The notes beneath the pieces were generated by a model. The model saw nothing but the letters and a program-made list of their open reading frames with translations. It was not told the DNA's origin and ran no database searches. DNA of 64,000 nucleotides from a bacterium SCSIO 12741. GTDB lineage: Bacteria > Bacteroidota > Bacteroidia > Flavobacteriales_G > Salibacteraceae. Below are positions 55,058-59,191 of this stretch, in pieces (the stretch's first letter is position 1; the number at the start of each line of letters is the position of its first letter). A program made the position numbers and the translations under genes. The DNA is taken from NCBI GenBank assembly GCA_024398055.1, contig CP073749.1, forward strand, positions 1,550,594 through 1,614,593, written 5' to 3'.

Positions 55058-55091
55058 ATCCTAATTCAACCCTCTTAAATGCGGTTTGTTC

Positions 55092-55099
55092 TACCTTTG
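55092..55099 (+). promoter_or_regulatory. Promoter element of the DAHP synthase/chorismate mutase gene
   Basis: TACCTTTG matches TAnnTTTG, 12 bp before the ATG at 55112. It excludes the upstream ATG at 55079 as the start. Confidence 0.6.
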
Positions 55100-55111
55100 C
55101 AGGCACAGGCT

Positions 55112-56239
55112 ATGAAGGGTTTGAACGAAAAAGGGAACGATCTTGTACTACCGAGGGTGAAGGATAAGAAACCACTATTAATTGCTGGGCCATGTAGCGC
55201 CGAAAGTGAGACACAGATCTTATCGGTTGCCGAATCTTTGGCGGCCCAAAAAAAGGTTCAGCTCTTTCGGGCAGGAATCTGGAAACCCAGAACCCGACCA
55301 GACAATTTTGAAGGAATTGGCGAAAAAGGATTACACTGGCTTCGGCGGGTTCAGGAAGAGTTTGGAATGCCTGCCATCACCGAAGTTGCCAACGCCCGGC
55401 ACACCCGAGAGGCTCTCGATCAGGGGTTAAAATACCTTTGGATTGGAGCTCGCACCACAGTGAATCCTTTTTCTGTTCAAGACATTGCAGATGCGCTAAA
55501 GGGCGCCCCTGTTACCGTATTTGTAAAAAATCCTATTCATCCAGATATAAACCTATGGATGGGTGCTATTGAACGGATTCAAAATGCAGGAGTGGCCCAT
55601 GTAGGCGCTATTCACCGAGGTTTTAGCACCTTTAGAAGTTCACCTTACCGCAACATTCCACTTTGGGAAATTCCCATTGAACTCCAACGTCGATTTCCTG
55701 ATCTGACACTCATTTGCGATCCCAGTCATATCGCTGGTAGTCGCCCGTTAATTCCTTTGGTGAGCCAAAAAGCTCTTGACTTGAACATGGCTGGACTTAT
55801 GGTAGAAGTTCACCCAAATCCGGAAGAAGCCTGGAGTGATGCCAAACAACAGCTTACACCTGGCCACTTCCACGACATGGTAGACCTGTTGTCGGTTCGT
55901 TCAGAACACGGGTCTGATGACGTCTTTATCAATCAATTGGAAGAATTGAGAGACAAAATCGACAAGCTGGATGAGGAGATTTTGAGCGCCTTGGAAGTTC
56001 GATTAAAGATGATTGAACAAATCGGTCAGTACAAAAGGCAGAACAATGTGACTGTTTACCAAATTGATCGGTGGAACGAAATCCTGAAAACCCGGGCCAA
56101 AATGGGTGGAGAACTCGGAATGGATGCCGAGTTTGTCAAGAAGCTCATGGAGTTGATCCACGTAGAATCCATTCGGATCCAAACGGGAATCATGCAGGAT
56201 CCTTCTCAGGGCCAAGACCCATTATCCGGTCAAGAATAG
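55112..56239 (+). CDS. Bifunctional DAHP synthase / chorismate mutase
   Basis: 375 residues. The DAHP synthase part shows IAGPCSAESETQ, FRAGIWKPRTRPDNF and LICDPSHIAGSRPLI. The C-terminal ~90 residues form an AroQ-type chorismate mutase helix bundle (LRDKIDKLDEEILSALEVRL and MIEQIGQYKR). Fusing the entry and branch enzymes of aromatic synthesis, often with the mutase acting as a sensor of the end product, is common in this phylum. The 3' end overlaps the convergent hemD by 50 bp. Confidence 0.93.
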   Translation: MKGLNEKGNDLVLPRVKDKKPLLIAGPCSAESETQILSVAESLAAQKKVQLFRAGIWKPRTRPDNFEGIGEKGLHWLRRVQEEFGMPAITEVANARHTREALDQGLKYLWIGARTTVNPFSVQDIADALKGAPVTVFVKNPIHPDINLWMGAIERIQNAGVAHVGAIHRGFSTFRSSPYRNIPLWEIPIELQRRFPDLTLICDPSHIAGSRPLIPLVSQKALDLNMAGLMVEVHPNPEEAWSDAKQQLTPGHFHDMVDLLSVRSEHGSDDVFINQLEELRDKIDKLDEEILSALEVRLKMIEQIGQYKRQNNVTVYQIDRWNEILKTRAKMGGELGMDAEFVKKLMELIHVESIRIQTGIMQDPSQGQDPLSGQE

Positions 56240-56846
56240 CTAACATTCCGTAACCCTTGGCTACCCGAGCCGAATACCCTTTGGTTCGAAGCGCCTCTGC
56301 TGTGGTTTCACCTATAGCTACCAATTGAACGCCTTTTGGTATTTCATGCTGATCGAAAAATGATTGAACATTGGATGGACTCGTAAAGGCAATAACATCC
56401 AAATCACCGGGTAATTCACAAGATCGATTAAGGGTTTCATAGGCCCCTACTTCGATTACCTGATCTGCAGGAAGAGCCTTTTGCACCGTCCTTTTTCCAA
56501 TGCGCGTTACAGGAAAAAGCACCTTTCCCTCACCGACCAGCTGACCAAACTGGGCTGCCGCTTTTTCTACAGGGTGCGATCCGATAAACTGAGGTGTTAA
56601 ACCTTGTTTGATGAGTTCACGAGCGGTTCCCTCCCCTAAGGCCGCAATTTTGGTTGTAGATGGAATCCTATTCCAGGCGTGGCGAACGGCCGACGGCGAA
56701 TTAAAAAACACCCATTGAATATCCTCTTCTACCGGCCCGAAAGGCAGCGGCTGAGTTTGAATAAACGGAGCTTCTACAAGCGTTAGAAAATGGGAAATTG
56801 AAGATTGGGCAAAGAGCGACCAATCAAGCTCTTTGGTGATTAAGAC
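56190..56846 (-). CDS. hemD: Uroporphyrinogen-III synthase domain (no conventional start; possible fusion to HemC)
   Basis: The frame is open from 56846, in the last codons of hemC, to TGA at 56190, giving about 218 residues of a HemD-like protein: VLITKELDWSLFAQSSISHF, WVFFNSPSAVRHAWN, LGEGTARELIKQG and AFTSPSNVQSFFD. It cyclises hydroxymethylbilane to uroporphyrinogen III. No ATG, GTG or TTG occurs in this frame between the upstream TGA and a GTG at 56711 inside the domain. The N-terminal ~45 residues of the fold, including VLITKEL, lie upstream of that GTG, so that codon is not a plausible start. The junction with hemC is an A9 run (56847-56855) that forms a -1 slippery sequence, discussed under findings. 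Confidence 0.8.
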   Translation of the reverse strand, partial: VLITKELDWSLFAQSSISHFLTLVEAPFIQTQPLPFGPVEEDIQWVFFNSPSAVRHAWNRIPSTTKIAALGEGTARELIKQGLTPQFIGSHPVEKAAAQFGQLVGEGKVLFPVTRIGKRTVQKALPADQVIEVGAYETLNRSCELPGDLDVIAFTSPSNVQSFFDQHEIPKGVQLVAIGETTAEALRTKGYSARVAKGYGMLAILDRIMGLGPEKDPA

Positions 56847-57760
56847 TTTTTTTTTACCTGATCCTGGATTCGATCCATCGCTTCCTGAACCAAGGCTTCA
56901 CCATCTTTTCCTTCTAGAAAAAATCGTTTTAACGGATCCCTTTCTTTGGCAGCATAAGAAACCCAAAGCTGAAACTGTCCCTCTTCTTCGCGACAATAAA
57001 CACCCAAAGGCAATTTACAACCCCCTTGACAACGATTGAGAATAGCTCGTTCGATATGGGTCGTTGTAGCTACCTGATCATCATTTAGGGCTTGGAGGGT
57101 TTGGCGCAATTCTTCATCTCCTTCTCTGATCTGAAGAGCTAAAACTCCTTGAGCGGGAGCCGGAATAAAAGCCGTAGGGTCCAAAATTTCAACGAAAAAA
57201 TCATCCAGTGGTAGCTCCAGGCGAGATACACCTGCCAGGGCAATAACAATGGCATCGTATTGTCCGTCGCGCAGCTTTTGAATTCTGGTAGGAACATTTC
57301 CGCGCAAATCATCCAGGTTTAGATCTTCCCTAAAGAATAAAAGCTGAGATCTTCTACGAGCCGATGAAGTTCCCACTTTGGCTCCCGATTTCAAACTTAG
57401 CGGCTTCGAGGTATCCACACTCTCTGGACGGATAAGTAGTAATTCAGATGGGTTTTCCCGATCCGAAACTGCTGCAATCGAGAGTCCTTCCGGTTGTTCG
57501 GTTTCCAGGTCTTTGTGGGAGTGAACCGCTAAATCAACCGACTCATCCAACAGAGCCTGCTCAATTTCCTTGGTAAAAAACCCTTTTCCCTCTAGCTTAT
57601 CAAAGCTGAGATGCTGGATTTTATCCCCTTGAGTCTTAATTATTTTGAGTTCGCAGCTTACACCTTGCTCAGCGAGCTGATCCTTTACACGATTGGCTTG
57701 CCAAAGGGCAAGATCACTTCCTCTGGTACCGATGATGATACCGGACTGACGATCCGACAT
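56840..57760 (-). CDS. hemC: Hydroxymethylbilane synthase (porphobilinogen deaminase)
   Basis: 306 residues, the normal size. ATP-free motifs of the family: IGTRGSDLALWQANRV, SHKDLETEQPEG, GTSSARRRSQLLF, DDLRGNVPTRI and NRCQGGCKLPLGVYC, which carries the cysteine that binds the dipyrromethane cofactor. It polymerises four porphobilinogens. Its start overlaps the hemA stop by one base. Its last codons are GTA AAA AAA AAG TCT TAA, containing the slippery run shared with hemD. Confidence 0.95.
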   Translation of the reverse strand: MSDRQSGIIIGTRGSDLALWQANRVKDQLAEQGVSCELKIIKTQGDKIQHLSFDKLEGKGFFTKEIEQALLDESVDLAVHSHKDLETEQPEGLSIAAVSDRENPSELLLIRPESVDTSKPLSLKSGAKVGTSSARRRSQLLFFREDLNLDDLRGNVPTRIQKLRDGQYDAIVIALAGVSRLELPLDDFFVEILDPTAFIPAPAQGVLALQIREGDEELRQTLQALNDDQVATTTHIERAILNRCQGGCKLPLGVYCREEEGQFQLWVSYAAKERDPLKRFFLEGKDGEALVQEAMDRIQDQVKKKS

Positions 57761-58989
57761 TACTTTTTTTCTTCTTTTAGTAGGATTTCCTTAGCCAAGA
57801 GCATAGGAGTGCTCATGTACTTTTTTTCGAGGTAAGAAACCACCTTATCCAGCGTTTCTCTGGAGTTTTGATCCAACTCGTCAATTTCCCGGGCAAAAAC
57901 TTCTTCGACTGCTCGTCTACGAATGTCTTTTACTTGCTCAGGCACTTTACGCATCGCCAGTTCTACTTGTCTCACCTTGTGAATGTTTACAAAGTCGTCC
58001 AAGTTTTCTTTAACGATGGCCTCGCAACGGTGCAATTCTCCTTTTCTCAATTCCAGGTTTTTCGCCGCCAAGTCTTTCAAAGACTCAACACCAATAAATT
58101 CCACCGACTCTTCTTTAACTATGTCAGAGTGGGTATCAGCAGGAACAGCCAGATCGATGATCGTTTTGTTTGCTGGTTGCTCTGGGTTAAGAGAAGCATA
58201 TATTTCAGGAGTGATAATCACTTCTTCAGATCCGGTACAGGTGATGAGTGCATCAAAAGGAGATTGAAAATCTTTCAACTCACTCAAAGCAAAAGCCTGA
58301 CCACCAATTTCGCGAACCAAATTTTCTGCCCGACTCAAGGTTCTGTTGAATATGTAAAAGTTGGTATAACCCGCTTTTTTCAATTTCAGCAGCATTGCTT
58401 TGTTGGTTTTTCCTGCACCAACAACCACAATTCCCGATTCGGTAGAAATTCCTTGTTCAATTAATCTGCGGTACGCCAGGTTAACGATGCTCACCGGGCG
58501 ATTAGCAATCAAAGTTTCCGTAAAAACTTGTTTTGCTGTTTCGATCGTCTTACGCATCAGGATGCGAATAAAGTCTCCGGTCAATCCGGCTTCTTTACAA
58601 TTTTGGTAGGCATCCTTGATCTGAGAAATAATTTCCCGTTCACCCACCACAAGTGAGTCCAAAGAACCCGCTACGCGAAATACATGATCAACGGCCTCCA
58701 AGTGAGAATAAACCAAAGCTTGCTTTTCAGCTTTGTCTACTTGCTCCTGGCTCCAATCTGGATAGATCTCAGCCAACATCTCATTTAGAAAATCAGCGGT
58801 TAACTCTTCCTCCGTGCGAAACCACATTTCCACTCGGTTACAGGTACTGAGAAACAACAATTCCTCTACCCGTGATCCCAAAAGTGACTGTAAGCGATTC
58901 TGGAGATTTTCAGGAGCGATGTGAAAGGCTCCTACTTGTTCGATACCAACCGAACTGTGCGTATATGTGACAGCATGAAAATACTTCAT
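57760..58989 (-). CDS. hemA: Glutamyl-tRNA reductase
   Basis: 409 residues from ATG at 58989 (the frame opens at 59010). The catalytic cysteine lies in LFLSTCNRVEMWF (about residue 50), the NADPH loop is VVVGAGKTNKAMLLKL (about residue 178) and the C-terminal dimerisation region is coiled. It reduces Glu-tRNA to glutamate-1-semialdehyde, the first step of the C5 haem pathway. It heads hemA-hemC-hemD. Confidence 0.96.
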   Translation of the reverse strand: MKYFHAVTYTHSSVGIEQVGAFHIAPENLQNRLQSLLGSRVEELLFLSTCNRVEMWFRTEEELTADFLNEMLAEIYPDWSQEQVDKAEKQALVYSHLEAVDHVFRVAGSLDSLVVGEREIISQIKDAYQNCKEAGLTGDFIRILMRKTIETAKQVFTETLIANRPVSIVNLAYRRLIEQGISTESGIVVVGAGKTNKAMLLKLKKAGYTNFYIFNRTLSRAENLVREIGGQAFALSELKDFQSPFDALITCTGSEEVIITPEIYASLNPEQPANKTIIDLAVPADTHSDIVKEESVEFIGVESLKDLAAKNLELRKGELHRCEAIVKENLDDFVNIHKVRQVELAMRKVPEQVKDIRRRAVEEVFAREIDELDQNSRETLDKVVSYLEKKYMSTPMLLAKEILLKEEKK

Positions 58990-59191
58990 ACAATAACGAT
59001 CGTCCTGCAAAAGTGCGGGGAAAGGCGAGTTACTTTGTCATGGAAATGTCAGAGAAAGTCTAAATAGAATCGTTCTAAATAGCCAACAGCCTCATGAAGG
59101 CCAATTATCTGATTGTGGGTGGTGTTTCCGGGTTATTAAAAGATTAGTAAAAATGCGTACTTTTAGGCGGAAACTAAAAAAATTGAATCCT

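Follow-up and report, generated by a model that had tools for sequence, protein, structure and literature searches.

A startless hemD frame behind a conserved A run at the end of hemC: a probable slippage-made HemC-HemD fusion in Bacteroidota

Ribosomal -1 frameshifting in the dnaX gene of Escherichia coli is stimulated by two elements, an upstream Shine-Dalgarno-like (SD-like) element and a downstream hairpin. In the same organism, high shiftiness has been linked to lys-tRNA(UUU), especially where it reads AAG; when stimulators are lacking, a shift rate of about 0.3% is reached by the best V_VVA_AAG heptamers (PMC4066793). Bacterial RNA polymerase slips with high efficiency at runs of nine A or T (PMC5009743), and insertions are the commoner outcome in A/T runs (PMC5574713). 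Candidate dnaX genes whose long form needs a shift are mentioned as well (PMC5009743). HemC and HemD can be found as one protein: Leptospira interrogans has a HemC-HemD fusion with the same domain pair as described here (PMC8698207), which bears out what the first-pass annotation of this DNA had stated about Leptospira. This work describes a hemC-hemD junction within a 64 kb window (the whole stretch of DNA that was analysed) at which, judged from the sequence, HemD is very probably made as a HemC-HemD fusion through slippage at an A run.

All features of the junction lie on the minus strand. The hemC gene (porphobilinogen deaminase / hydroxymethylbilane synthase; 56840..57760), identified from the list of open reading frames (ORFs) and its PF01379 match, encodes 306 aa from an ATG start to a TAA at 56842-56840. 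Its 3' end reads GTA AAA AAA AAG TCT TAA and contains an A9 run (56847..56855; T9 on the plus strand), the proposed site of the frame change. Both A_AAA_AAA and A_AAA_AAG are in phase on this run, so the -1 heptamer that had been claimed for the end of hemC is indeed present. The HemD domain (uroporphyrinogen-III synthase; 56190..56846), delimited by its PF02602 match and a codon walk, lies in the -1 frame relative to HemC and comprises 218 aa from VLITKELDW, which begins at the GTC at 56846; a -1 shift had been predicted to lead into exactly this sequence, and the -1 frame reads accordingly. Upstream, the HemD frame is closed by an in-frame TGA (56898..56900, codon walk), 17 codons above the GTC. 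Its first ATG, GTG or TTG below the TGA is the GTG at 56709..56711, 45 codons inside the domain. The codon walk agrees here with the earlier claim that HemD has no start codon between the upstream TGA and a mid-domain GTG. The overlap of the HemC and HemD frames is confined to the stretch from TGA 56900-56898 through the HemC stop, and the pair is found in two frames, not in a single ORF. An ORF upstream of hemC (57760..59010), taken from the ORF list, shares one base with the hemC start; by eye, it is probably hemA (glutamyl-tRNA reductase). At the other end, hemD overlaps by 50 nt (56190-56239) with a convergent ORF (55079..56239) that, judged by eye, resembles DAHP synthase / chorismate mutase.

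A Pfam profile search matched HemC to PF01379 (E 1.7e-72, residues 8-219); its C-terminal domain PF03900 scored 23.1, under the cut-off of 26. HemD matched PF02602 (HEM4) with E 4.7e-30 and 104.9 bits against a cut-off of 27.5, covering residues 21-204 and profile positions 12-229. When HemD is begun at GTG 56711, the match does not start until profile position 45, and positions 12-44 are lost. The first strand, VLITK, lies in the startless frame outside the Pfam match; relatives align from residue 1 (e.g. L005 and L010), and the strand motif recurs at this position in the census described below. A sequence search for a solved structure of HemD returned none at E 0.01.

Comparison of the junction with close relatives, as the first-pass annotation had suggested, yielded 15 genomes from three families, the window's included, in which hemC ends in A9 or A10 and HemD follows in the -1 frame without a plausible start; other relatives carry fused genes. 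The run is A9 in 13 genomes and A10 in two (G002 and G005), where it begins one base earlier in the codon, so that the frames are still broken. The window's own family shows three arrangements, namely a one-frame HemC-HemD fusion, a split with an ordinary hemD start, and the window-type split. The last is found in 7 of its 35 sampled genomes, 29 of which have a HemC match (G000, G018, G002, G007, G005, G011 and G013). Within family f13, five genomes of genus g68 (G095, G298, G274, G248 and G320) are of the window type, amounting to 5 of the 10 sampled genomes of the family, and all five sampled genomes of the sister genus g28 are fused. The third family, f54, is represented by genus g165, all three seen members of which (G323, G442 and G452) have the window-type junction. 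Single-ORF HemC-HemD fusions are common in the window's own family and class. At junctions L008 and L227-L229, the run begins within a stop codon of the HemD frame and is followed after 3-4 nt by the HemC stop, which pins the frame change to the run or a few bases beyond.

A possible origin of the g68 arrangement is suggested by start-bearing junctions in several Crocinitomicaceae, where hemC ends TTA AAA AAG TGA and HemD starts at an overlapping GTG (VIPKRIFISR). The g68 junction reads TTA AAA AAA AAG TAG, with a GTA at the position of this GTG (VEPKRVFISK); on the HemC tree, g68 and those Crocinitomicaceae are not sisters. The hemC of L077 (CP034120.1, titled as a complete chromosome of Glaciecola amylolytica) falls inside Fluviicola on the tree and points to a mislabelled or mixed record; the metagenome-assembled genomes (MAGs) L080 and L104, titled Chitinophaga pinensis and Chryseobacterium gleum, likewise cluster with Crocinitomicaceae. 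In G161:C111 (junction L161), one TAA lies within the hemC match.

A census of split junctions was compiled after removal of duplicates (G320 merges into G248), of L002, of fused loci and of those lacking a HemD match. Among the 99 distinct junctions, 13 combine a startless HemD frame with A≥9, 82 a start with A<9, three a startless frame with A<9 and one a start with A≥9. In the three startless cases with a short run (L036, L109 and L125), HemD is not the immediate neighbour or starts farther along. The single start-bearing case with A≥9 (L143) has as its only start a GTG 106 nt upstream, inside hemC, which is not a plausible start. The absence of a plausible start is associated with A≥9. The corresponding Fisher table, 14/0 versus 0/82, has L143 moved to the startless class by hand and L036, L109 and L125 left out, and kinship among the genomes means that it yields no true probability. 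A few of the 82 start-bearing entries do not represent genuine HemC-HemD neighbours, among them L048, where a contig ends within a fused gene, and L122, L130, L138 and L161.

The distribution beyond close relatives was sampled at several levels. In a class sample of 395 genomes, 248 with HemC, 6 of the 20 split junctions fetched among the matches listed are of the A≥9 kind (G095, G248, G298, G320, G323 and G274, the last with only a distant GTG). A sample of the order of G323 (150 genomes, 112 matches) contained three window-type junctions in 30 loci. Among the matches listed for a phylum sample (395 genomes, 319 matches), A≥9 occurred in none of the 20 junctions fetched, of which 17 fall outside the class; at several of these junctions HemD is not next door, and at L302 the longest downstream frame has no start. 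No startless A≥9 junction occurred among the 80 loci of a named collection, which possibly lacks the records of the nearest relatives. For fused genes from all sources, A9 was found in one of 37 distinct junctions (L064), a count that does not include 14 more in which the strand motif was not located.

Runs of this length are not rare in themselves; the notable part is the location at the junction. The T9 at 56847-56855 on the plus strand, exactly nine long, is the sole A or T run of at least nine in the window, for which a first-order model expects about 4.3. The 5.1 Mb genome contains 59 exact A9 runs on both strands together, from which simple arithmetic gives a probability of about 3.5e-4 for an A9 within a given 60 nt of one strand. 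The other 58 runs of the genome were examined as 55 stretches. Of these runs, 25 are not contained in any frame whose total open length exceeds 250 nt, and among 13 of the remaining 33 that were read, four are in frame in long ORFs (L181, L184, L211 and L215) and one is at a frame change (L166). Since the former four are ordinary genes with an in-frame A9, A9 alone is no marker of a programmed site. At L166 (G000:C1, around 278286; positions 587-595), also in the window's genome, an A9 stands where a long frame ends and the -1 frame continues, so that this may be a second site of slippage or a gene that is broken; by eye, its protein resembles DUF4157.

Purifying selection acts on the startless HemD in three pairs of close relatives, with an omega of 0.16 for G323/G442, 0.14 for G095/G298 and 0.10 for G248/G320. 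Over the first 45 HemD codons, pN is lower than pS in all three pairs, with weak constraint in G095/G298 (L217/L218; pN 0.116 versus pS 0.163). Between more distant g68 members, pS reaches 0.72-0.81 and is near saturation, yet the run stays at nine. On a HemC tree built with a quick method and SH-aLRT support only, in which 48 of 129 inner branches are weak, the slippage label changes seven times, with at least three changes forced by starred branches. These changes mean that the slippage type either is ancient with frequent losses or arose repeatedly; as the genomes are related, the census does not represent 15 independent events.

The missing start, the conserved run and frame break, the selection on HemD and the fusion obtained in silico jointly lead us to propose that HemD is made by slippage. 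That slippage of either kind, by polymerase or ribosome, takes place is highly probable, although its occurrence, rate and agent are things we infer. In the proposed mechanism, hemC and hemD would act as one slippage-coupled gene. The majority of transcripts would carry nine A and give HemC alone (306 aa), and a fraction would gain one A, or lose two, and thereby enter the fusion frame; alternatively, ribosomes would slip back one base on A_AAA_AAG or A_AAA_AAA. The slipped product would be a HemC-HemD fusion of 523 aa, the only form of HemD. Two traits of transcriptional slippage are present: in 15 of 15 genomes an A/T homopolymer of about nine or more stands at the frame change, and in 15 of 15 an A inserted in silico joins the frames. 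The resulting protein, counted from the aligned HemC start, is 511-523 aa long, similar to the single-ORF fusions of relatives; for the window this agrees with the first-pass statement that A10 would fuse the frames. Loss of two A in silico gives the same fusion minus one residue, and after loss of one A or gain of two, HemC is extended by a foreign tail of no more than 15 residues. A mirror image is offered by L064 (CAJWDP010000015.1, a MAG), which has A9 at the same place and HemC-HemD fused in the zero frame; with one inserted A, its HemC ends in ...KKKVQP. The first-pass reading of HemD as a fusion made by ribosomal or transcriptional slippage is supported by the conservation of run and frame in 15 genomes.

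HemD might instead be translated alone from ATT, ATC, ATA or CTG, coupled to termination of hemC. Coupling is common elsewhere, as 82 of the 99 census junctions combine a short run with an in-frame HemD start, which in many of them overlaps the hemC stop (GTGA, ATGA), and one of the four codons precedes the first HemD strand in 4 of 14 A≥9 junctions (L143, L144, L145 and L229). At the other 10 of the 14, the window's included, none of them is present, for which reason the non-standard start was rejected; translation from an own start would also leave the association between startlessness and A≥9 unexplained, and we regard it as very improbable. A sequencing or assembly error, with a true run of A10 and a plain hemC-hemD fusion, would suit both the usual place of such errors, homopolymers, and the single-ORF fusions common in relatives. 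However, the same break in the same -1 frame recurs in 14 other assemblies from three families, 12 with A9 and two with A10 that are still out of frame. An error would need to hit the same spot in every one of these assemblies, so that the missing base, which the first-pass annotation had kept as an alternative, is very unlikely indeed and was rejected. It is also highly improbable that hemD is a decaying pseudogene replaced by the second HEM4 gene of the genome. This HEM4-family gene (L001, G000:C1:2064205-2064804) does score better on HEM4 than the junction hemD, but the latter is intact across 218 codons and the three pairs of relatives mentioned above retain purifying selection on HemD, on which grounds the pseudogene was rejected. 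The genes flanking L001 look to us like DUF4271 and rnpA, and HEM4 also matches in Bacteroides ihuae, where URO-D gave no match; from these neighbours and this match, L001 is probably no spare HemD and may not be the heme enzyme. URO-D, the next enzyme of the pathway, was found in the window's genome, which means that uroporphyrinogen III is needed.

Given slippage, RNA polymerase is somewhat more probably than not its main agent, and both machineries may act. The heptamer needs six A and a G, yet the run is never shorter than nine across the 15 genomes; genus g165 has its nine A in another codon phase (AAA AAA AAA GCC); and the -1 frame of all 15 equals the direction of a one-A insertion. RNA polymerase is favoured by this length, phase and direction together, and by the polymerase slippage at nine A or T and the prevalence of insertions cited above. 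Codon phase is a weak test between ribosome and polymerase, since it may descend from an ancestral LKK tail. The possibility that the ribosome does most of the slipping, by programmed -1 frameshifting on A_AAA_AAG, is a variant of the slippage explanation with overlapping odds, and we see it as possible but on the doubtful side. It is in keeping with A_AAA_AAG in phase in 9 of 15 genomes (the window and eight others), A_AAA_AAC in three and A_AAA_AAA in all, and with a single tRNA-Lys (UUU) and no CUU among 42 tRNA-like places, a result for which 150 of 348 candidates were scored and a miss is possible. The 70 nt downstream of the junction also fold somewhat better (mean z -1.10, n=15) than at start-bearing junctions (-0.44, n=67; p 0.029), in a test based on simple base shuffles and on sequences that are related. 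A search for a conserved downstream hairpin at the 15 junctions gave a weak folding signal only; by eye, no downstream helix or upstream SD-like element is shared by the 15 genomes, and AAGGAG occurs just upstream in G002 only. Further points against a mainly ribosomal origin are the 9-10 A kept in all 15 genomes where six suffice, the roughly 0.3% shift of unstimulated heptamers in E. coli, and the six genomes that either end in AAC (three) or have the other phase (three). The emphasis which the first-pass annotation had placed on the ribosomal dnaX heptamer is upheld in part: the heptamer is in phase in the window, but the run of at least nine and the g165 phase point rather to the polymerase.

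We know of few chromosomal genes in free-living bacteria that depend wholly on slippage for a core-pathway enzyme. Annotation may list hemD here as absent, as truncated (from GTG 56711) or as a pseudogene. A dose-setting switch between the two consecutive heme enzymes, in which the length of the A run sets the ratio of HemC to HemC-HemD, is conceivable, if somewhat short of probable; at least three lineages have retained or reacquired the run, with relatives that show fused genes or an ordinary hemD start, and the mirror form L064 exists. As no other route to HemD is visible, flux to uroporphyrinogen III, and so to heme, would under this reading depend directly on slippage by RNA polymerase or the ribosome. 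Natural controls are available, with fused, normally started and slippage-dependent forms within one family, A9 and A10 runs, two phases and the mirror case. The locus is a good system to study why bacteria keep a slippery run over a fusion, and whether the HemC : HemC-HemD ratio matters.

Slippage genes of the dnaX and tssM type and the HemC-HemD fusion are already known, and slippage between hemC and hemD appears to be new. A literature search gave no report of it among the titles and abstracts listed, most subscription papers lying outside its scope, and in the GeneTack survey (PMC3711429), none of the terms tried in the main text led to a heme gene. Single-ORF fusions of Bacteroidota have the same domains and a similar length, in one open frame instead of the broken frame of the window. 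With E. coli dnaX the junction has in common the in-phase A_AAA_AAG and, on the candidates scored, a single tRNA-Lys(UUU); it differs by a run that is longer than needed, and no shared SD-like stimulator or downstream hairpin was seen. The dnaX gene of Thermus thermophilus is another parallel, with a run of nine, two products per gene and insertion of extra A (PMC5009743). In that gene, however, the zero frame gives the long product, whereas the long product of hemC-hemD would need a slip and belongs to heme synthesis. A similar layout is found in tssM1 of Citrobacter rodentium, where a stop follows shortly past a poly-A run and an added A restores the full length, giving two length variants, and tssM3 of Yersinia pseudotuberculosis has the reverse arrangement, as L064 does relative to the window (PMC4256274). 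The tssM1 run is A11 as against A9-A10 here, and slippage in tssM adds a domain of one protein, whereas at the hemC-hemD junction it would add a separate enzyme.
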